Positions 14,226 to 29,651 of a stretch of 64,000 nucleotides of DNA are shown here, in pieces (the first letter of the stretch is position 1; every line of letters begins with the position of its first letter). Made by a program: the position numbers and the translations under genes. Source of the DNA: Acidimicrobiia bacterium. GTDB lineage: Bacteria > Actinomycetota > Acidimicrobiia > Acidimicrobiales > VFJN01. The stretch spans positions 124,001-188,000 of the forward strand of contig SHVB01000002.1 of assembly GCA_009694375.1 (NCBI GenBank). Reading direction: 5' to 3'. A model generated the notes under the pieces. That model saw only the letters and a list, made by a program, of their open reading frames with translations. It searched no databases and was not told the origin of the DNA.

Positions 14226-14357
14226 TTAGCGCCCGGTGCCAATGAAGATCACCTCACGACCCTCTTGTACGAGGATGTGCTCGGCCAGCATCGGCAAACG
14301 TCCACTCCGCAGGCCCGCCCCATCGTCGCTCCTCGCGGCCGGATTCACAATGAACAT
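14226..14357 (-). CDS. Possible 43-residue protein, unknown
   Basis: The stretch 14121-14391 is otherwise empty. On the minus strand an ATG at 14357 opens a 43-residue frame beginning MFIVNPAARSDDGAG and ending in a beta-strand-like REVIFIGTGR. Its codons look like the local genes (mostly G or C in third position). A TATCCT box lies eight bases before the ATG, like other genes here. I do not recognise the sequence. It could be a real microprotein or a remnant; the rest of the gap shows nothing else. Confidence 0.35.
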   Translation of the reverse strand: MFIVNPAARSDDGAGLRSGRLPMLAEHILVQEGREVIFIGTGR

Positions 14358-14391
14358 GAACCCGAAGGATACGGCGGGCCATCCTGGTCGG

Positions 14392-14619
14392 GTGACGCAG
14401 ACACCCGCTCGCCGAAGTCTCTTCGAGCCTCATGCCGACCGACTCCCCCTCGGCTACCCACAACGCGCCCAGATCCTCGCCGCCCACCGCGCCGCCGTGG
14501 AAGCCGGACGGCCCGATTACCTCGACCCCCGCACCGCCGCCGTGGTGATCACCGCGGCCGAGCACGTTCGTCGCGGGTCCTGCTGCGCCAACGACTGCCG
14601 CCACTGCCCCTACCGCTGA
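14392..14619 (+). CDS. DUF5522-like small cysteine-rich protein
   Basis: This 75-residue protein ends in the signature RRGSCCANDCRHCPYR, a cluster of four Cys and one His that could bind iron-sulfur or zinc. The part before it (YLDPRTAAVVITAAEH) is typical of DUF5522 proteins, which are sometimes fused to or adjacent to other enzymes. Function is unknown. The GTG at 14392 is favoured because CATCCT lies six bases upstream; the frame is open farther upstream, but those starts have no support. Its 3' end overlaps the convergent ECF S-component gene by ten bases. Confidence 0.75.
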   Translation: MTQTPARRSLFEPHADRLPLGYPQRAQILAAHRAAVEAGRPDYLDPRTAAVVITAAEHVRRGSCCANDCRHCPYR

Positions 14620-15455
14620 GCGGTCCTCGCCGCCCCCTCAGGAGACAGCGGGAACTCCACCGGGGCGCCGAAGGCCGCTCGGCGGGCGGCGCGACGCAAC
14701 GTGACCAGCACGGCGGGGCCCACCAACAACACTGCCGCCACGTTGGTGATGGCCCGACCGGTATCCCAACCCCAGGTGCTCGTGGCCAGGGTGTAGAACA
14801 CGAAGCGGCGCAGGTTCTCCGCCACGGCGGCCCCCGGGACGTACGACAGCGGGGTGCCGGTGCCAAGCGCAAACGGCCAGCCCCACAGGTTCACCAAGAA
14901 CCCATAGAGATAAGCCGAGCAGGCGGCGTACGCCGCCAACACAACGATCTCGGCCCGACCTCGAGCGGCGGGTAGCCAGCCCGCCCCCAACCCAACCCAC
15001 GACGCCGCCAACATCTGGAACGGGAGCCACGGTCCGATGCCACCGGTGAGCAACGCCGACGCAAACAGCGTGGTAGATCCCAGCACAAACCCGAAGGCCG
15101 GGCCGTACACCCGCCCTCCGAGCACCAGCAGGAAGAAGACGAGTTCGATGCCACCGGTGCCCGCCCCGAGCGGCCGTAGCGCAGCCCCGAGGGCCGCCAG
15201 TACGCCGAGCATGGCCAGCCCTTTCGTATCCATCCCCCGGCTCGTCATTTCCGCAAACACGATGCCCACGAGGGCCGGAAGAATGAGCGCGAAGATGTAC
15301 GGGGCGTCGCGAGTATGGGAAAACCCTTCCGGCGGGGTGAGAATGAGCGGCCAGGCGAACATGGCCAGTCCAGCGATCGATGCCAACCCCAACGCCACCA
15401 TCGTGCGGGGGGCCATCGGCACTACCGAGCGGTCGGCCCGGGGCCAGGGGGTCAT
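14610..15455 (-). CDS. ECF transporter substrate-binding (S) component, probably for cobalamin
   Basis: The 281-residue integral membrane protein has six or seven hydrophobic helices (for example MVALGLASIAGLAMFAWPLIL near residue 20 and a pair around residues 85-130), as in large ECF S components. The S component binds the vitamin and topples in the membrane to deliver it. It is the last gene of the operon, overlapping the ATPase gene by four bases. The cobalamin specificity is inferred from the riboswitch and from the DUF4430-like partner, not from the sequence itself. The extra-long C-terminal tail (after residue 260) is Ala/Arg-rich. Confidence 0.8.
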   Translation of the reverse strand: MTPWPRADRSVVPMAPRTMVALGLASIAGLAMFAWPLILTPPEGFSHTRDAPYIFALILPALVGIVFAEMTSRGMDTKGLAMLGVLAALGAALRPLGAGTGGIELVFFLLVLGGRVYGPAFGFVLGSTTLFASALLTGGIGPWLPFQMLAASWVGLGAGWLPAARGRAEIVVLAAYAACSAYLYGFLVNLWGWPFALGTGTPLSYVPGAAVAENLRRFVFYTLATSTWGWDTGRAITNVAAVLLVGPAVLVTLRRAARRAAFGAPVEFPLSPEGAARTAQR

Positions 15456-17050
15456 ACCGACACCCCGCTCAGCAACGCCCGCTCAACCTGCTCCACGGTA
15501 AGCCACGGATCGGGGTGCAACACCTTGGCGATCTGAGGGGCGAAGGCGGGGGAAGCCACCACCACCTCGGCGGTGGGTCCATCGGCCACTACCTCTCCCT
15601 CGGCCAGGACCACCACCCGGTCGGCCGTAGTGGCCACGAACTCCACATCGTGCGTGGAGACCACGATGGCACGGCCTTGGTGAGCCAGGTCCACCAGCAC
15701 CGAGGTGAGCCGGGCTTTGGCCACGGTGTCCAGGCCCCGGGTGGGCTCATCGAGCAACACCACCAACGGCGCCCGTACCAGTTGTACCGCCAGCACCAGA
15801 CCCAGTCGCTGCCCTTCCGACAGGTCCCGCGGATGAGTCGCCGCCGCCACCCCCGGCACGAGTCGATCGAGGAGCTCACGCGTGGTACCCGCCGCCGCCG
15901 GTGCCTCGCGGTCGGCCTGCTCGCACTCCTCGGCCACCGTCGCCAGGTACAGCAGATCCGATGGGGTCTGGGGCACCAGGCCAATGGCCCCCCGACGGCT
16001 GGCGGGATCCTCGCCATCGATGGTCACCGTCCCGCCCCCGCGAGGCCCAGCCGGATGCAAGGCCCACAGCAACGACGACTTCCCGGCACCGTTGCGCCCC
16101 ATGACCGCCACCAACTGACCGGGGGAAACATCCAGGTCCACCCCCCGCAGCGCCAGCGTGGTTCCGTAACGCACCGTGAGCCCACGAGCCGAGAGCACCG
16201 CGGGCCCCGCCGGCATGAGGCGGTGCTCGGGAACAAAGCCCGAGAGATCCGCCCGCAGGGTGGCGACGTGGCGACGCGCATCGCGCACCGACAGTGGCAA
16301 TGGGTCCCACGCCGCGAGCCGCCCCAGTCGTACTAGTGGCGGTGCCACCTCCGAAGTACGCAGCATCGCTTCGGGAGCGCCCGAGGTAACCGAGCCAGCG
16401 GGGCCGAGCAGCACCACCCGATCGGCATACTGCACCACCCGCTCCAGCCGGTGTTCGGCGATGACCACCGTGATGCCGAGATCGTGAACGAGCCGAGTGA
16501 TCGCCGCCAGCACCTCCTCCGCCGCGGTTGGATCCAGCGCCGAGGTTGGCTCGTCAAGCACGAGGATGCGCGGCTGGGGGGTAAGCACGGAGCCAATCGC
16601 CACTCGTTGCTGCTGGCCCCCGGAAAGACTGCGGAGCGGGCGGTGGCGCAACTCGGCGATACCGAGCAAATCGAGGGTCTCCTCCACCCGCTTGCGCATC
16701 ACTGATGCGGACAGGCCGATCTGCTCCATGGCGTAGGCCAGTTCTTCCTCCACACTGTCGGTCACGAACCCCGCCAGGGGGTCCTGCCCAACCATCCCGA
16801 CCACGTCGGCGAGTTCGCGCGGCGGATGGGTACGGGTATCGCGACCCGCCACCGTGACGCGGCCAGCCAGATGGCCGCCAGTGAAGTGCGGAACGAGTCC
16901 GTTGATGGCCCCGAGGAACGTGGACTTTCCGATTCCCGTACGACCGACCACCACGCAGAGTTCGCCCTCGGGGATCACCAGGTCCACGTCGCACAAGGTG
17001 GGCGACGACGCGTTCGGGTACCGAATCGTCACGTGCTCGAAGTGGATCAT
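15452..17050 (-). CDS. ECF transporter ATPase with two fused ABC domains (A and A')
   Basis: The 532-residue protein carries two complete ATPase halves in one chain. The first has Walker A GRTGIGKST, signature LSGGQQQR and Walker B ILVLDEPTSALDP; the second has GRNGAGKSS, LSEGQRLG and VVLLDEPTRGLD. This is the tandem form of the EcfA1/EcfA2 pair, which hydrolyses ATP to power S-component toppling. The start is the ATG at 17050, overlapping the T-component stop (ATGA). A longer open frame to 17365 would overlap the T gene and is rejected. Both signature motifs are intact, though the second is atypical. Confidence 0.9.
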   Translation of the reverse strand: MIHFEHVTIRYPNASSPTLCDVDLVIPEGELCVVVGRTGIGKSTFLGAINGLVPHFTGGHLAGRVTVAGRDTRTHPPRELADVVGMVGQDPLAGFVTDSVEEELAYAMEQIGLSASVMRKRVEETLDLLGIAELRHRPLRSLSGGQQQRVAIGSVLTPQPRILVLDEPTSALDPTAAEEVLAAITRLVHDLGITVVIAEHRLERVVQYADRVVLLGPAGSVTSGAPEAMLRTSEVAPPLVRLGRLAAWDPLPLSVRDARRHVATLRADLSGFVPEHRLMPAGPAVLSARGLTVRYGTTLALRGVDLDVSPGQLVAVMGRNGAGKSSLLWALHPAGPRGGGTVTIDGEDPASRRGAIGLVPQTPSDLLYLATVAEECEQADREAPAAAGTTRELLDRLVPGVAAATHPRDLSEGQRLGLVLAVQLVRAPLVVLLDEPTRGLDTVAKARLTSVLVDLAHQGRAIVVSTHDVEFVATTADRVVVLAEGEVVADGPTAEVVVASPAFAPQIAKVLHPDPWLTVEQVERALLSGVSV

Positions 17051-18186
17051 CGGGCCGCCTCCAGCGCAGACGGACGATGGCCCGGCGATGACACCCGCCG
17101 GGGCGAGCGCCCCTCCACTGGCGGGGCCAACCAGGCCGGGAGCACCCCCAGCAGGATCGCCAACGTGGGCCCGGCCGCCAGCGTGGGCCACTGCAGCGGG
17201 TCGATCGAGGGCAGGAGGGCGGACGGGGTAACCGAACCCACCACCACCATCAGCGCGGCCACCGTCAATCCCACGACCGTCACGCTCCATTCCTCCACCC
17301 GCCAGGGATCGGGCCGGTAGCGCGTGCGCGGCACGCGCCGACCGCTCATCATCACCCCGATCCACCCCATCGTGGTGCCCGCCACCAGCAACGGACCACC
17401 CAGGTAGCCCGGGGCGCTGCTATCGAGCAGCGAGTACGTACCGATGCAGATACCCATCAGGCCAGCCAGCAACAACCCCCCCGTGGCGACTCGGGCGCCA
17501 AAGGGCACGTCGGCGCGCCGGCCATACCCGCGCGAGTCCATGGCCGCCGCCAGCAACAACGAACGATCCAGAGCATCGGTCATCACCGGGATGGCAATCT
17601 CCCGGAACACGCGAAAGCGACGCGACTCCTCAGCGCGCAAGCGCCGAGCCCGGCGCACCCGCTGACCACTCTCGATGAGTTGCGGCGCCATCGTGAGGGC
17701 CACCGTGACGGCTACACCGATCTCGTGCAAGGCATCGGGCATGGCCTTGAGCAGTCGTTTGGGATTGGCCAGGACGTTGGCCGCTCCCACGCAGATCAGC
17801 AAGGTGGCGAGCCGAAGGCCGTCACACAGGGCGGCGAAAAGGCCTTCCGCCGACACCGGTCCGCCCAAACGAATCCCCATCGCGGCGGCGGGCAGGGGCA
17901 CCTCAGGGAGCGTGAAGAGCACGTGGGCGCCGAACTGCCCGTCGAGCAGCATTCGGAACACCACCCGGATCACGATGACGGCCAGACCGAGGTAGAGGTA
18001 GGTCCTGAACCCCAGGGCCCACGGCGCATCGGTGCGACGCGCCGCCACCACCTGGGACACCACGGCCACGATCAACAACAGCAACAACGGGTTGGTGGTG
18101 CGACTCGCCGCCGCCGCCATCCCCAGGGCCCACAGCCACCACGCGCCAGGGTGCAGTGCCCGGGGCAAGCGAGCCGAGCGGATCAT
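17047..18186 (-). CDS. ECF transporter transmembrane (T) component
   Basis: This 379-residue membrane protein matches EcfT/CbiQ-type scaffolds that link the ATPases to the S component. Multiple N-terminal helices are followed by the cytoplasmic coupling region, with the Ala-Arg-rich segments typical of the family (VRRARRLRAEESRRFRVFRE near residue 180). More helices occur near the C-terminus. GGAGGAAGG lies directly before the ATG, and the gene overlaps the DUF4430-like gene upstream by four bases. Confidence 0.85.
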   Translation of the reverse strand: MIRSARLPRALHPGAWWLWALGMAAAASRTTNPLLLLLIVAVVSQVVAARRTDAPWALGFRTYLYLGLAVIVIRVVFRMLLDGQFGAHVLFTLPEVPLPAAAMGIRLGGPVSAEGLFAALCDGLRLATLLICVGAANVLANPKRLLKAMPDALHEIGVAVTVALTMAPQLIESGQRVRRARRLRAEESRRFRVFREIAIPVMTDALDRSLLLAAAMDSRGYGRRADVPFGARVATGGLLLAGLMGICIGTYSLLDSSAPGYLGGPLLVAGTTMGWIGVMMSGRRVPRTRYRPDPWRVEEWSVTVVGLTVAALMVVVGSVTPSALLPSIDPLQWPTLAAGPTLAILLGVLPAWLAPPVEGRSPRRVSSPGHRPSALEAAR

Positions 18187-19025
18187 CCTTCCTCCGGCCC
18201 GCCATGAGTCCGTCGGTGCGCCGTCCGCCAGCCCAGCGCCGCCAGACCCGCCACCACCAGCGCGGCGGCGATGACCCCCACGGGCGAACCGGCGCCCACC
18301 TCGGGGGTGGTGGCGCTCACTCCATTCGCCGAGAGCTCCTCGGGATCAGCGGCGGGAGCATCGGTGCCGAGATCGGCGGCGTCCAGGGCCGATTCGGGGG
18401 CGGCCGCGGCGGGGACCGCCAACTCGTCGGTGGCCACGGCGGGCACCGGGGCGGCAGAGCGCGGGGCGGCGCCGACGGAAGCGGGCGGGTCGCTGACGGA
18501 GGCGGCGGAGCGAGGGGCGGGCGTGGTCGTCGACGGGCCGACGACCGGTGTCGACACTGGGCCGGGTACGGCCACCCCCGGCGGATCACCGGCCCCGAAG
18601 GACCAACCTTCGACGCTGCCCTCCGGGGGGCGCCGGGCCCCGCCCGACGTGCTGTAGATCCATGCCGCGCCCCGTTCGGCATGCCAGTAGGACCAGTAAC
18701 GCGAAGCGCTGGGAACAGCCTGACACTCGCTCACCGGCTTGGCCTCGATCTGACAGAGGAATCCCGGCTGGCTCCGCACGTTCGTGATGTCGAAGCCCGC
18801 CTTAGACAGTGCCTCAAATCCGCTGCGCACCGGAGCCGCCGCGCAGCGGATGTGCACGCCGCCACCGGCGGAACCAAAATCCACCACCACGGTGATCCCG
18901 CTGGCCTCGAGACAGGCCCCCGAACTAGCGGCGCCCGCCATCGCACCCGAACTAGCCACCCCCAAGCCCCCCGACGCGCCGACGACAACCGTGACGAAGA
19001 GACAAAGGCGGCGGGCGAAGGTCAT
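18183..19025 (-). CDS. Secreted DUF4430-like protein (transcobalamin beta-domain type), membrane anchored
   Basis: The 280-residue protein has a signal-like N-terminus (RRLCLFVTVVVGASGG...), then a domain of about 110 residues. That domain carries two Cys pairs and the pattern PSASRYWSYWHAERGAAWIYS followed by GSVEGWSFG, as in DUF4430. In vertebrate transcobalamin and intrinsic factor a DUF4430-type beta domain covers one face of cobalamin. A Pro/Ala/Ser/Thr linker (about residues 130-235) leads to a C-terminal membrane helix with a basic tail. It sits between the LPVTG barrel gene and the ECF genes, so it probably presents cobalamin to the importer. The binding role is inferred. Confidence 0.75.
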   Translation of the reverse strand: MTFARRLCLFVTVVVGASGGLGVASSGAMAGAASSGACLEASGITVVVDFGSAGGGVHIRCAAAPVRSGFEALSKAGFDITNVRSQPGFLCQIEAKPVSECQAVPSASRYWSYWHAERGAAWIYSTSGGARRPPEGSVEGWSFGAGDPPGVAVPGPVSTPVVGPSTTTPAPRSAASVSDPPASVGAAPRSAAPVPAVATDELAVPAAAAPESALDAADLGTDAPAADPEELSANGVSATTPEVGAGSPVGVIAAALVVAGLAALGWRTAHRRTHGGPEEG

Positions 19026-19026
19026 G

Positions 19027-20364
19027 TCAACGGCGCCCGTCCGGGCTATCTAGCCGCCGCCGGGAACCCAACAGCGCCGCGCCCACCAGCAACAGCAGCA
19101 GCGCCACTCCCACTTCGCTCCCCGTGTGCCGCCCGGTCACCGGCAGCGTGTTCTCCAGACCCACCTCAGAGGCGAGTACCTCCACGGGAACCACCTCGGG
19201 AACCACCTCGGGAACCACCTCGGGAACCACCACCTCCGGGCAGACCAACGGCTCCAGACCTGCCGAGACGGGAGCCACCGATCCGATCGTTCCGTAGCTC
19301 GCCAGGCCGAGCCCCATGACCCCCTGGGCACTGGCGCGAATCCACTGATCACGGTCGGCATCGAGCCCGGCCGAAAAACCGAGGGCGTCGTAGGCAATGG
19401 CACCGAGGTCGGCGCACTCCCCAATCTGCAACGACGCCACCAACGCCGCCGCCAGATCGGCGGCTCCCGTCTCACCGGCGGCCCGTAGGGCCTGGCCGGC
19501 CAACCCGGTGCTGTTGGCGTTGACCGCGCCCGAACCCAAGTAGCCGCCGGAAGGCTGCTGGGCGGCGAGAAGGAACTCCACCGCCGAAGCGGCGGCGGCC
19601 TCCGTGGCCGGAGTGGCGGGGATGGCCAACAGGGCCTGCAGCGCCAGCGCGCTGGCGTCCACGTCGGCGGTGGTGGGGTCGGTGCAGGTCAGGCTGTTCT
19701 CGGTTTCAAACGGGTCGTAACTGGTGACATAGCCGAAGTAGTAGAGGCGGAAACCGCCGTCCGAGCACTGTTGGTCGAGCAGAAAACTCACCGCCTCGGG
19801 CGGGACACCACCGCTGGTGCGGTCCAAGGCAAGCAGCGCCAACGCCTGCCCGAGCCCGTTGGAATAGTTCCCAGAGCCCTGCAGATCAGTGTCGTTGAAG
19901 CGGCCGATCTCGTCGCCCATGGTGGCCATCAGCGCCCGCAGTTCAGGCTCGAGGTCTACGGTGTCGCCAAGGTCGGTTCCGAGTACTCCTTGCAGCAGCA
20001 ACGCCTTGGCAGTGGCGTTGGCGGCGCGGTCGGCGGGGTACAGCGAGAACTGATTGACATAGTTGAACGTCTCGGCATCCACCGCCGCCACGGCCTCGGC
20101 GACAGCAGGATCATCACGATGGCCACCGGCTACCTCGGCGAGAATGGCATCGATCGTGAGCCCTGGATCGGCGTACTCGTCGTCCCCAAAGGTCACGGTA
20201 AGCATCCCGCTGCGGGCTGCGAGCTCACCCGCTAGCCACGCCAAGCCCGCATCGGCTCGGGAGCCTTCCACCGCCATTGCGGGCGAGGGGTGGACAACAA
20301 GGGAGCCCAACAGAGCGAGAACCGTGGCGCTGAAACACCAGCGAGGGAAATACCGTTTCATCAT
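19027..20364 (-). CDS. LPVTG-anchored alpha/alpha-barrel protein, transcobalamin alpha-domain type
   Basis: The 445-residue surface protein has a signal peptide (cleavage near residue 31, SPAMAVEG). A helical-repeat domain follows with squalene-cyclase-like motifs (SDGGFRLYYFGY, QQPSGGYLGSG and ADVDASALALQALL). The chain ends in a repetitive EVVP linker and a sortase motif L407-P-V-T-G411, then a hydrophobic stretch and Arg-rich tail. The alpha/alpha barrel with these repeats is the fold of the transcobalamin alpha domain. No catalytic cyclase residues were sought in detail. The start is ATG 20364, with AGAAGG six bases upstream. Being first behind the cobalamin riboswitch, it is probably the capturing half of the system. 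Confidence 0.78.
   Translation of the reverse strand: MMKRYFPRWCFSATVLALLGSLVVHPSPAMAVEGSRADAGLAWLAGELAARSGMLTVTFGDDEYADPGLTIDAILAEVAGGHRDDPAVAEAVAAVDAETFNYVNQFSLYPADRAANATAKALLLQGVLGTDLGDTVDLEPELRALMATMGDEIGRFNDTDLQGSGNYSNGLGQALALLALDRTSGGVPPEAVSFLLDQQCSDGGFRLYYFGYVTSYDPFETENSLTCTDPTTADVDASALALQALLAIPATPATEAAAASAVEFLLAAQQPSGGYLGSGAVNANSTGLAGQALRAAGETGAADLAAALVASLQIGECADLGAIAYDALGFSAGLDADRDQWIRASAQGVMGLGLASYGTIGSVAPVSAGLEPLVCPEVVVPEVVPEVVPEVVPVEVLASEVGLENTLPVTGRHTGSEVGVALLLLLVGAALLGSRRRLDSPDGRR
19186..19230. repeat. Tandem 12-bp repeat encoding the EVVP linker
   Basis: The unit GGGAACCACCTC occurs three times exactly and once in part (on the minus strand it encodes Glu-Val-Val-Pro). It sits in the linker before the LPVTG motif, a place where length variation between strains is expected. 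Confidence 0.8.
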
Positions 20365-20414
20365 GGATGACCTTCTGGGAGGCGAGGAGCGCACATCGCC
20401 CGGAGTCGGCACCA

Positions 20415-20612
20415 CAATAAAGCGAGGTCAATCCCGGGCTCCCGATACGTAGACCTCGACGTTGAGTGGAGCCAATGCGCTCGGGGCGGGCATTCCGACT
20501 TGCCCGAAGTGCGACGACGACAGGCTTACGGCTGCGGGTCAGTGCCGGAATTCAACCGGCTTCCCCCGCCCAAGAGCGATTTGTTATTGAGATGGTCACC
20601 GTAGCCGTAAAC
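20415..20612 (-). promoter_or_regulatory. Cobalamin riboswitch
   Basis: Read on the minus strand, the leader holds the conserved core GGGGAAGCCGG followed by TTCCGGCACTGACC and then GACCCGCAGCCGTAAGC. The 3' B12 box AGCCCGGGATTGACCTCGC lies at 20440-20422, and GAGGTC...GACCTC can pair around it. These elements in this order match the cobalamin riboswitch family. The leader ends about 60 bases before the first gene, so it probably controls translation or early termination of the whole five-gene operon. Confidence 0.9.
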
Positions 20613-20649
20613 TCTCGGCTCGCTGACAATGCCCCTACCCTGAGAAGCG

Positions 20650-21585
20650 ATGACCGAACTCGATCAGCCTCCCGCCGGGCCGCACGACCCCCAGTTCCGC
20701 TGCGCAGTGTGGACACAGGCCCAGGGCGTAGACCCCATCGGCTCGGCCGAGTCCTTCGATGCCATGATCCTCGTGGAGTGGCCCCTGCCCTGGCCCCACG
20801 ATGTGAGTGAGATCCCCGCCCTGGCCAAGGCGGCCAGGGCGCCCGGCGTGCGAGTCATGGCCGTGGTGCCCCACCACGATCAGAGCCGCGATGGCCTCCG
20901 GCGCGTCGTACACCGTTGGCGCGTGCGCACCAATGAGCTCGTGGGGGTGGACCATCGCGTGGCCGTGGCCGAGATTCCCGCTCTGCTCGATTCCCTTATC
21001 GAGGATCCCTTCCGCGACAGCAGCCAGTGGAGCACTGCGGTGGGTGAGGCGCCCCCGGAGGTGCTGGTGTGTGCCCACGGCCGCCGCGATACGTGCTGCG
21101 GACGCTGGGGCACGCGGCTCCACATCGAGTTGGCGGCGCGAGGTTGCGACGCTCGCGTCTGGCGGTGCAGCCACACCGGCGGCCACCGATTCGCCCCCAC
21201 CGCCATCACGCTACCGGAGGGTCGCGCCTGGGCTTCGGTGGATGCCGACCTTCTCGAGGGCGTAGTGGCGCGCACCGCCACTGTCGCCGACCTCGCCGAG
21301 CACGACCGTGGCACGACCGGCTTGGGGATGTGGGCCCAGGTGGTGGAGCGGGCGCTGTTCAACGAGTACGGCTGGGGGTGGCTCACCACCAACGTCACCC
21401 GAGCCGAAACCACCATCGCCCCGAACCAGCAGCACGCCACCGTCACCCTCGAATGGGAGGGCGGTCGGGCCACCGGCGAGGTAGAGGTAACGAGAACCCT
21501 CCCTGTGCTCGTCTGCGGATCGCCGCCCGAATTAGCCCAGAAGTCCGCCCCCGAGTTGCGGCTCTCGTCGCTGGAAATGGGCTGA
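20650..21585 (+). CDS. Sucrase/ferredoxin-like family protein (thioredoxin-like [2Fe-2S])
   Basis: The 311-residue protein matches the sucrase/ferredoxin-like family. CAHGRRDTCCGRWGTRLH and the later WRCSHTGGHRFAPT are the family's Cys/His motifs and probably hold a [2Fe-2S] cluster in a thioredoxin-like fold. The biochemical role of the family is not settled despite its name. TACCCT lies eight bases before the ATG. The promoter region is shared with the divergent cobalamin operon, but no cobalamin link can be shown. Confidence 0.85.
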   Translation: MTELDQPPAGPHDPQFRCAVWTQAQGVDPIGSAESFDAMILVEWPLPWPHDVSEIPALAKAARAPGVRVMAVVPHHDQSRDGLRRVVHRWRVRTNELVGVDHRVAVAEIPALLDSLIEDPFRDSSQWSTAVGEAPPEVLVCAHGRRDTCCGRWGTRLHIELAARGCDARVWRCSHTGGHRFAPTAITLPEGRAWASVDADLLEGVVARTATVADLAEHDRGTTGLGMWAQVVERALFNEYGWGWLTTNVTRAETTIAPNQQHATVTLEWEGGRATGEVEVTRTLPVLVCGSPPELAQKSAPELRLSSLEMG

Positions 21586-21633
21586 CGGGGACCACCCCCC
21601 GCATCCCTTGCGCCCACTAAGCGGGCCATGCCG

Positions 21634-21639
21634 TACCCT
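21634..21639 (+). promoter_or_regulatory. TACCCT -10 box for a leaderless transcript
   Basis: TACCCT lies exactly six bases before the ATG at 21646 and inside the longer frame that would begin at 21628, so it argues for the shorter start. Confidence 0.55.
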
Positions 21640-21645
21640 TTCGGT

Positions 21646-22314
21646 ATGGCCGACTACCAAACCCCGGAATTTCACCCGGCGTTCGAGGAGTACTGCGAGG
21701 CCATCTACGAGCTTCGGGAAGACGACGTCGAGGTCATCCAGGCCCGTATCGCCGAACGCCTCCTCGTGTCGCGGCCCGCCGTCTCCGAAATGATCAAACG
21801 CCTGGAGGCCGAGGGACTGGTGGCCATCGTGCACAACTCCATCAGCCTCACCCTCGATGGCCAGCGCCTAGCGGAGAAAGTGGTGCGCCGTCACCGGCTC
21901 GCCGAACGTTTTCTCACCGACATCCTCGACCTCTCCTGGGCCGAGGCCCACCAAGAGGCCGGCAAATGGGAGCACATCATCTCCGAGCCAGTCGAATCAG
22001 CCATGGTGCGCGTGCTCGGCAACCCCACTACCTGCCCCCACGGCAACCCGATCCCGGGCGCGGACTACCACGCACCGGCGGCGGTGCCGCTGAGCGATGT
22101 GCAGGTGGGGGGCAGTTTCATCGTGAGTCGCATCCCCGAGGAGTTGGAGTTCACTCCGGGTCTGCTTGAGTTCCTCGAGGATGCCGATGTCGTTCCCGGT
22201 AAGACCGGAACAATCACCGCCGCCTCCCCCGACGGCACCACCACGGTGGAAGTCAACGGTCGCCACATCGGCATTGGTGCCTTCGCCAGCCAACGCATTC
22301 TCGTGACCGTCTGA
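21646..22314 (+). CDS. DtxR/MntR-family metal-dependent transcriptional regulator
   Basis: The 222-residue regulator has a winged HTH (residues 1-65, with VIQARIAERLLVSRPAVSEMIKRLE as reader helices). A dimerisation and metal domain follows (about 66-140) and a C-terminal SH3/FeoA-like domain. Metal-ligand motifs are visible in GKWEHIISEPVE and TTCPHGNPIPG, as in DtxR and IdeR. It senses Fe2+ or Mn2+ and represses uptake genes when metal is plentiful. The targets are not visible, though the heme-synthesis operon lies 3.5 kb downstream. Confidence 0.92.
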   Translation: MADYQTPEFHPAFEEYCEAIYELREDDVEVIQARIAERLLVSRPAVSEMIKRLEAEGLVAIVHNSISLTLDGQRLAEKVVRRHRLAERFLTDILDLSWAEAHQEAGKWEHIISEPVESAMVRVLGNPTTCPHGNPIPGADYHAPAAVPLSDVQVGGSFIVSRIPEELEFTPGLLEFLEDADVVPGKTGTITAASPDGTTTVEVNGRHIGIGAFASQRILVTV

Positions 22315-27622: not shown

Positions 27623-28980
27623 CCCATGTCGTGGTCATCGGCGGCGGCATCACCGGATTGGTGGCCGCCCGGGAGGCCAGCGAAGCCGGAGCGACGGTCA
27701 CGTTGCTGGAACCCGGGCGACTCGGCGGCAAGGTGCAGACGAGCGCCTTTGACAACGGCATGCTCGACGAAGCCGCCGACGCGTTCCTCGCCCGCGTACC
27801 CGAGGGCATCGAACTGTGCGAGCAACTCGGCCTCGCCGGTCAGCTCGTGGCCCCCGCCGAGCGTCGCGCCCACGTGTTCAGCCACGGGGCGCTGCGACGA
27901 CTCCCCGAGGCCCACCTGCTCGGCGTCCCCACTGACCTCGACGAACTAGCCGCCTCCGGCATCGTGTCGGCCGAGGGCATCACCGCGGCCCGCCGCGACC
28001 TCGAAGAGCCCCTCGTGGCTCCGACCACTGACGTCACCATCGGCAGCCTCATGCGCCAACGCCTCGGGCACGAGGTGGCGGAGCGGCTCGTGGACCCGCT
28101 GGTGGGCGGTATCAACGCCGGGAACAGCGACGCCTTGAGCCTGGCCGCCACCGTTCCCCAACTCGACGCCGCCGCCCGCAGCGGGGCGGCATCGCTCATC
28201 GAAGCCTGTCGGGCCCAACAGGCCGCCGGCCCCAACCGGAGCGACCCGGTGTTCTTCGCGCCCCGCGATGGCATGGGAGCACTCACCGCCGCGCTGGTGG
28301 CGGACCTCTCCCGTCGCGGTGTGACGCTGAACACTTCGCCAGCCCGCAGTATCGAACCCTGTGGGCTCGGATGGAGGGTGCAAGTAGAGGGCGGCTCCCT
28401 CGACGCCGATGCCGTGGTGGTGGCCACGCCCGCCCCGATCGCGGCGGCGATCCTGCGGGCCGGGGCCGCCCGGGTAGCCACGCTCCTCGCCGCCATCCCC
28501 TACGCATCGGTGGCGATGGTGTCTATTGCCGTGGATCGTGAGGGCATCGATCGCGAACTGAACGGCAGCGGCTTTCTCGTGCCGCGGAGCGAGGGCCTCA
28601 CCGTGACGGCTTGTTCGTGGACATCGGCCAAATGGCCGCACCTCGGTGGGGACGCCACCGTGTGGCTGCGGGCATCGGTAGGGAGAGATGGCGCCATCCC
28701 CACCGGACCGCTCGAAACGCAGGTGCTCGCCGATCTCGGGCACACCATGGCCCTGCGGGGCCGCCCTCGGGAGGTGCGGGTGAGCGAGTGGCCAGCGTCA
28801 TTTCCTCAGTACCGCGTCGGGCACCTGGCCCGAGTAGCGGCGATCGACGCCGGCCTGGCGGCCACCATGCCCACCGTGGCCGTGGCCGGCGCCGCCTTAC
28901 GGGGGCTCGGAGTGCCAGCCTGCATCCGCCAGGGCCGCGCCGCCGCCCAACGAGTATTAGCCCCCTTGGGCACGGCATAA
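27619..28980 (+). CDS. cgoX: Coproporphyrinogen III oxidase (HemY/CgoX type)
   Basis: This 453-residue FAD enzyme oxidises coproporphyrinogen III to coproporphyrin III with O2. VVVIGGGITGLVAARE is the N-terminal dinucleotide-binding motif, and the GDAPCFAD-like end region is represented by VAVAGAALRGLGVPACIRQGRAAA. Between CpfC and ChdC in the pathway order, it fits the CPD route. It overlaps cpfC by four bases and the sortase gene by one (TAATG). The start ATG at 27619 is coupled translationally. Confidence 0.92.
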   Translation: MTHVVVIGGGITGLVAAREASEAGATVTLLEPGRLGGKVQTSAFDNGMLDEAADAFLARVPEGIELCEQLGLAGQLVAPAERRAHVFSHGALRRLPEAHLLGVPTDLDELAASGIVSAEGITAARRDLEEPLVAPTTDVTIGSLMRQRLGHEVAERLVDPLVGGINAGNSDALSLAATVPQLDAAARSGAASLIEACRAQQAAGPNRSDPVFFAPRDGMGALTAALVADLSRRGVTLNTSPARSIEPCGLGWRVQVEGGSLDADAVVVATPAPIAAAILRAGAARVATLLAAIPYASVAMVSIAVDREGIDRELNGSGFLVPRSEGLTVTACSWTSAKWPHLGGDATVWLRASVGRDGAIPTGPLETQVLADLGHTMALRGRPREVRVSEWPASFPQYRVGHLARVAAIDAGLAATMPTVAVAGAALRGLGVPACIRQGRAAAQRVLAPLGTA

Positions 28981-29651
28981 TGAACACAGTGCATACGGTT
29001 TCTTCCCCCCGACGTCTTTACCGGCTCGCCACCCCCCTGGCGGCTCTGGTGGTGGCGGTCGCAGTGGGCGGCATAGCCGGACGAGGGCTGAGCGAGAGTG
29101 AGGTGGCCGCCAGTACCACCCCGCCGGCGGCACCGTCGCTCGACCTCGACCGGGTGGCGCAGACGGCCGTGAGCGTTGTGAACGGGATCAGCGCCGCCCT
29201 CCCGGTGCCGGGACCTTCTCCGCTCGACGCACGGGCACCCACTCCCAAAGTTCAGTGGGGCACGCTGGAAATCCCCTCCATCGGATTGTCGCAGCCCTTT
29301 TTTGAGGGAGTGACCCTCACCGCCATCGACAACGGCCCCAGCCATTGGCCCGGTACCGCCATGCCCGGCGAACTCGGCAACGCGGTGCTGGCTGGCCACC
29401 GCACCACCCGAACCCGGCCCTTCTTTGATCTCGACCTCGTGGCGCCGGGAGACGAGTTGATCTTCACGATGCTCACCGGCGAGCGGTACGTGTACACCCT
29501 CGACAGGGTGGAGATCGTGGACGCCACCGCACTGGGCATCGTGGATCAGACCTACGGCTACCGGGCCACGCTCTTCGCCTGTCACCCCAAGGGCAGCCTC
29601 CGGCAACGGATCGTCGGCCACTTCACTTTGCAGTCCTCTACCCCCGCCTGA
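28980..29651 (+). CDS. Class E sortase
   Basis: This 223-residue transpeptidase has an N-terminal membrane anchor (residues 18-36) and a Pro-rich stretch, then the sortase barrel. Catalytic residues are visible: H140 in VLAGHRTT, C201 in TLFACHPKG and an Arg at 208 or 210. Class E sortases recognise LAXTG or LPXTG signals in Actinobacteria and anchor the protein to peptidoglycan. Its only obvious substrate in this window is the LPVTG barrel protein of the cobalamin operon. It is cotranscribed with the heme genes, starting at an ATG that overlaps the cgoX stop. Confidence 0.9.
   Translation: MNTVHTVSSPRRLYRLATPLAALVVAVAVGGIAGRGLSESEVAASTTPPAAPSLDLDRVAQTAVSVVNGISAALPVPGPSPLDARAPTPKVQWGTLEIPSIGLSQPFFEGVTLTAIDNGPSHWPGTAMPGELGNAVLAGHRTTRTRPFFDLDLVAPGDELIFTMLTGERYVYTLDRVEIVDATALGIVDQTYGYRATLFACHPKGSLRQRIVGHFTLQSSTPA

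Follow-up and report, generated by a model that had tools for sequence, protein, structure and literature searches.

It was predicted in 2007 that surface proteins with toroid and transcobalamin-C-like (SLBB) domains, encoded beside CbiO and CbiQ genes, scavenge vitamin B12 for Gram-positive bacteria that lack B12 synthesis (Burroughs, Balaji, Iyer and Aravind; PMC1796856). The same study listed this SLBB clade in low-GC Gram-positives, planctomycetes and euryarchaea. Import of B12 by an ECF transporter has also been established, for ECF-CbrT of Lactobacillus delbrueckii (Santos et al. 2018, PMC5997447). Here we analyze a 64,000-nucleotide stretch of DNA (the window) from an Acidimicrobiia bacterium that contains an operon related to both systems. 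Like the systems predicted in 2007, it pairs an exported, anchored SLBB-type domain with an alpha/alpha toroid alongside CbiO-like ATPase and CbiQ-like genes. In contrast to that clade, its surface proteins belong to a divergent actinobacterial family that is missed by Pfam DUF4430, the toroid and beta domains are on separate genes, and an explicit S component is encoded at the locus, which also has a riboswitch. The operon shares the ECF-type T, A/A' and S make-up of ECF-CbrT but, unlike anything we found described for that system, it is dedicated (group I style) and encodes exported proteins for capture. The general idea of capture by such proteins is already known from the 2007 prediction for other Gram-positives. 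New are the divergent actinobacterial family beyond the reach of Pfam and the split into two genes, with natural fusions acting as Rosetta stones, as well as riboswitch control that recurs across loci and the genomic context of an apparent auxotroph.

We conclude that this is very probably an operon for the uptake of vitamin B12 (cobamide) that is controlled by a riboswitch and that combines surface capture by two proteins with ECF import. The riboswitch, the operon with its gene order, the conservation, the folds and the auxotroph context are all supported computationally. The features concerned are collected in Table 1.

Table 1. The operon with its leader (minus strand, window 20588-14610) and genes in its surroundings; positions are those of the window.
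Feature	Position	Strand	Details
Cobalamin riboswitch aptamer (RF00174)	20468..20588	-	cmscan 45.1 bits
Secreted alpha/alpha-toroid protein, LPVTG sortase tail (transcobalamin alpha-like half)	19027..20364	-	445 aa
Secreted, membrane-tailed beta-grasp protein (transcobalamin beta-like half)	18183..19025	-	280 aa
ECF T component (CbiQ family)	17047..18186	-	PF02361
ECF fused A-A' ATPase	15452..17050	-	two ABC_tran domains
ECF S component	14610..15455	-	six hydrophobic segments; PF12822 weak
DUF5522 protein	14236..14619	+	convergent
Suc_Fer-like protein	20650..21585		
DtxR-type iron-dependent repressor	21628..22314	+	
Sortase	28611..29651	+	PF04203

The riboswitch is followed by five tightly packed genes, the first of which starts with ATG with AGAAGG just before it. 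A single base separates genes 1 and 2 and all remaining junctions are 4-base overlaps, which is the spacing that an earlier note on this DNA had described. The same note had read the leader as a cobalamin riboswitch and had proposed a search with the covariance model, and the RF00174 match does exceed the gathering score of 31.5 bits (E 4.2e-8). It is the only RF00174 copy in the genome. Minimum-energy folding of the leader was uninformative (z -0.6), and a scan for promoters and terminators gave nothing above chance.

The first gene product has a signal peptide and a tail in which LPVTG is followed by a hydrophobic stretch and then by RRR. The window protein matches SQHop_cyclase_C just under the Pfam cut-off; among the 59 members of its family, SQHop_cyclase_C is matched by 53, Prenyltrans by 36 and the eukaryotic Cobalamin_bind, weakly, by eight. 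These features agree with the proposal that the gene encodes an LPVTG-tailed alpha/alpha-barrel protein. The window protein is predicted to fold as an alpha/alpha toroid from these Pfam matches and from its homology, in a checked alignment, to the toroid of a fusion protein described below. The family keeps invariant polar residues (Asp204, Asn250, Asn252, Gln141 and Gln315 in mature-fragment numbering), and the DxDD motif of class II terpene cyclases occurs in none of the 59 toroids. Since the alpha/alpha toroid fold is common to many enzymes, we draw the link between this protein and transcobalamin from genomic context and from the fusions. Anchoring through the LPVTG tail is plausible because the genome has two sortase genes, one of them within the window approximately 8 kb from the operon and the other elsewhere in the genome. 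The window sortase could be the anchoring enzyme for the toroid protein.

The second gene product is built from a signal peptide, a globular domain of approximately 120 residues, a long linker and a C-terminal hydrophobic membrane segment, with no LPXTG motif. A Pfam search of this protein and 77 relatives at E <= 0.1 gave no match to DUF4430 (PF14478), nor did Pfam assign any other family to them, and a profile of the family found no match among all PDB sequences. With these sequence searches empty, the relation to transcobalamin rests on structure. The AlphaFold2 model of the protein is of high confidence (pLDDT 91, pTM 0.86). Foldseek alone returned only 3u7z (E 0.1) for this model, and the transcobalamin match comes from re-alignment of Foldseek's candidates with VIA-align 2. 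All of the top 15 rows are then transcobalamin, haptocorrin, intrinsic factor or 3u7z, a bacterial relative, with Z of 9.2-9.9 over 92-98 residues at 2.8-3.4 A, while the next row, an unrelated protein, has a Z of 5.7. As modeled, the small-domain protein belongs structurally to the transcobalamin-like SLBB clade with its beta-grasp fold. Across the 77 sequences of the family, two tryptophans are invariant and four cysteines are fully or almost fully conserved. The earlier note had called this a DUF4430-like anchored protein and had suggested structure prediction as a check; the model has the transcobalamin beta fold, and the signal peptide and membrane tail agree with the description, whereas a DUF4430 match at the sequence level does not exist.

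Toroid and beta domains occur together in a single frame in eight ORFs. One of these, L037 from a Nocardioidaceae bacterium, is a single exported, membrane-tailed protein in which the toroid is followed by the beta domain without a linker, which is the order of transcobalamin. Its gene has its own riboswitch ahead and T-A-S directly after. The AF2 model of this fusion (pLDDT 86, pTM 0.74) contains an alpha/alpha toroid, and a Foldseek search places transcobalamins at ranks 1-11 with E down to 2.4e-9 and both domains covered. These are the best full-length Foldseek matches. Superposition on transcobalamin over both domains nevertheless gives a Foldseek rmsd of approximately 24 A, as the apo AF2 model places its two domains differently from closed transcobalamin. 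In VIA, no transcobalamin is among the 50 matches listed for the fusion model; all are toroid matches, the best being terpene cyclases of the squalene-hopene type and glycosidases (GH76). Thus, in the model, the folds and the domain order match transcobalamin, but the closed ligand-holding arrangement is not reproduced. The reverse order, beta then toroid in one ORF, is found in L036, L044, L071, L073 and L078, and on the other strand in L035. An 820-residue open frame at L033:2746-5205 is composed of a toroid, an LPxTG-like membrane tail and a beta domain; it looks like a lost stop between two adjacent genes, and a sequencing error is possible. Fusion alignments in which toroid rows were pushed onto beta columns were left out, and the checked alignment (A6) was used.

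The remaining three genes, as judged from their family matches, qualify as a predicted ECF transporter, as had been claimed for them. The T component scores 38.1 bits against CbiQ PF02361 (cut-off 25) and the two ABC_tran domains of the A-A' protein, also above cut-off, score 161 bits; ECF ATPase models are the best-scoring NCBIfam matches of this protein, yet they remain below their equivalog cut-offs. The S component matches ECF_trnsprt (PF12822) weakly and below the curated cut-off. Among its relatives, 14 of 22 match PF12822 at E <= 0.01 and there are weak matches to the riboflavin S family as well. Neither the S protein nor its family profile has a meaningful match in the PDB, solved ECF S chains included.

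Of 395 Acidimicrobiia genomes, 79 have a relative of the S gene, and genome_contigs contains such relatives at no fewer than 568 loci. The 80 best-matching of these loci belong without exception to Actinomycetota (Acidimicrobiia, Streptomyces, Micromonospora, Amycolatopsis, Nocardioides and others). Among the 62 loci with enough upstream DNA, the beta gene lies upstream of T in 60, and 45 have both toroid and beta upstream of T-A-S. The operon is widespread in Actinomycetota. An Rfam search of 25 long loci placed RF00174 directly before the surface-protein genes of the operon, on the coding strand, in 12, and before another toroid or beta copy in a further three. A beta gene with no toroid upstream of T is seen in 15 of the 62 loci, and several Streptomyces loci of this kind have a toroid just after S instead. 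The Amycolatopsis loci L076, L077, L089, L095, L096 and L111 have a beta gene before T-A-S and no recognizable toroid nearby, which suggests that there the beta protein may act alone or with a distant partner. The beta domain is also found on plasmid records (L153, NZ_CP108785.1, and four others, from Embleya, Streptomyces and Arthrobacter), and the system may therefore move horizontally.

The genome encodes several B12-dependent enzymes: MetH, two methylmalonyl-CoA mutase-type proteins, IcmF and NrdJ (570 bits, above cut-off). The TP_methylase family is represented only by RsmI, YabN and a uroporphyrinogen methyltransferase of the CobA type with a fused HemD-like half, so that a search with this family finds no corrin-ring methyltransferase in the genome; CobS is missing from it as well. 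Given MetH, the mutases and NrdJ on one side and these missing synthesis genes on the other, the organism looks auxotrophic for B12. BtuF-type (Peripla_BP_2) and BtuC-type (FecCD) proteins are likewise missing from the genome, while each is present in 13 of 14 control genomes. This is consistent with the suggestion that the surface proteins replace a BtuF-type protein, and it leaves the operon as the only recognized candidate for B12 import in a genome that is 96% complete, a level at which such gene absences are not absolute.

In the mechanism that we propose, low cellular cobalamin would relieve the riboswitch and allow the five-gene mRNA to be expressed. The toroid protein would be held at the cell surface by a probable sortase link and the beta protein by its C-terminal membrane segment. 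We infer that the exported pair binds B12 as a two-protein clamp, a cobamide being captured between the toroid and the beta-grasp domain, and that the captured vitamin is then handed over to the membrane S component. The ECF T/A-A' motor would complete the import. In the most specific form of this proposal, Actinomycetota possess a split transcobalamin whose surface alpha and beta halves can enclose cobalamin only as a pair, and which docks onto the ECF S component; we advance this form tentatively, at slightly less than an even chance.

Several observations count against the B12-uptake reading as a whole, namely the fusion model that lacks a closed clamp, the empty sequence searches of the small domain against DUF4430 and solved structures, the toroid matches in VIA, which point to the general fold and not to transcobalamin in particular, the additional weak resemblance of S relatives to riboflavin S proteins, the incompleteness of the genome and the 15 of 62 loci that are toroid-less upstream. 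The first and last of these are also what would be expected if B12 is imported but a single one of the two surface proteins, either beta or toroid, binds it, with the other serving as a scaffold or receptor and no two-protein clamp being formed. Entry 5np4 is, by its title, a crystal structure of the human transcobalamin beta domain on its own with bound cyanocobalamin, which also fits a single binder. However, the two genes are side by side in 45 of the 62 loci, the two domains share one frame in eight ORFs, the toroids retain invariant polar residues yet have no cyclase motif, and several of the Streptomyces loci that are toroid-less upstream have a toroid shortly after S. We therefore consider a single binder unlikely, though it deserves to be taken seriously.

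The remaining alternatives concern the cargo and the nature of the surface proteins. Since cobalt transporters typically have CbiQ/CbiO-type components and the specificity of an S component is not readable from its sequence, the cargo might be cobalt or a B12 precursor (cobinamide or a lower-ligand base) and not an intact cobamide. With corrin-ring methyltransferases missing, cobalt would have no B12-synthesis use here, there is no CobS to assemble a precursor, and the transcobalamin-like folds suit a large corrinoid; cobalt import was rejected on these grounds, and we regard this class of cargo as improbable. It could further be argued from the squalene-hopene-type cyclases and GH76 enzymes that head the VIA toroid matches that the toroid is an enzyme, either a terpene cyclase or a hydrolase acting on polysaccharides, that the beta protein is an unrelated adhesin and that the riboswitch is a chance association. 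Export of the toroid, the lack of DxDD throughout its family, the fusions to a transcobalamin-beta-type domain and the riboswitches ahead of these genes in many loci led us to reject a terpene cyclase, and they make this combination of coincidences very hard to believe.

Returning to B12 capture and import, the operon shares with vertebrate transcobalamin, intrinsic factor and haptocorrin the beta-grasp fold, the alpha/alpha toroid and, in the L037 fusion, the domain order. It differs from these carriers in its low identity to them (10-18%), in the use of two separate surface proteins, and in a putative receptor that is an ECF importer and not CD320 or cubilin. The nearest NCBIfam relatives of the two surface proteins are the SCO2321 and SCO2322 families of Streptomyces coelicolor, whose function is unnamed. 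The toroid scores 62.7 bits against NF053823 (SCO2321 family; curated cut-off 300) and the small protein 28.7 bits against NF040672 (SCO2322 family; curated cut-off 85). As these scores are below the cut-offs, the window proteins are relatives and not members of these families, and relatives from the Streptomyces loci are likewise under the SCO2321 cut-off. A literature search for SCO2321-SCO2325 found nothing relevant.

B12 uptake by this operon would assign a function to unnamed SCO2321/SCO2322-like families, would explain the B12 supply of many B12-dependent actinobacteria without BtuFCD, and would extend ECF transport by a step of capture outside the cell. It would also offer culturable hosts such as Streptomyces, Micromonospora and Amycolatopsis for direct testing of these bacterial relatives of human transcobalamin. 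A split transcobalamin, if true, would give ECF importers a stage of substrate capture that is not known for them, and it would be a living equivalent of the ancestor from which the animal B12 carriers arose.

Two features of the surroundings of the operon may be added. The convergent gene for the DUF5522 protein overlaps the final bases of the S gene. Close upstream of the operon, on the opposite strand, lies the gene for the DtxR-type iron-dependent repressor, which is adjoined by that for the Suc_Fer-like protein.
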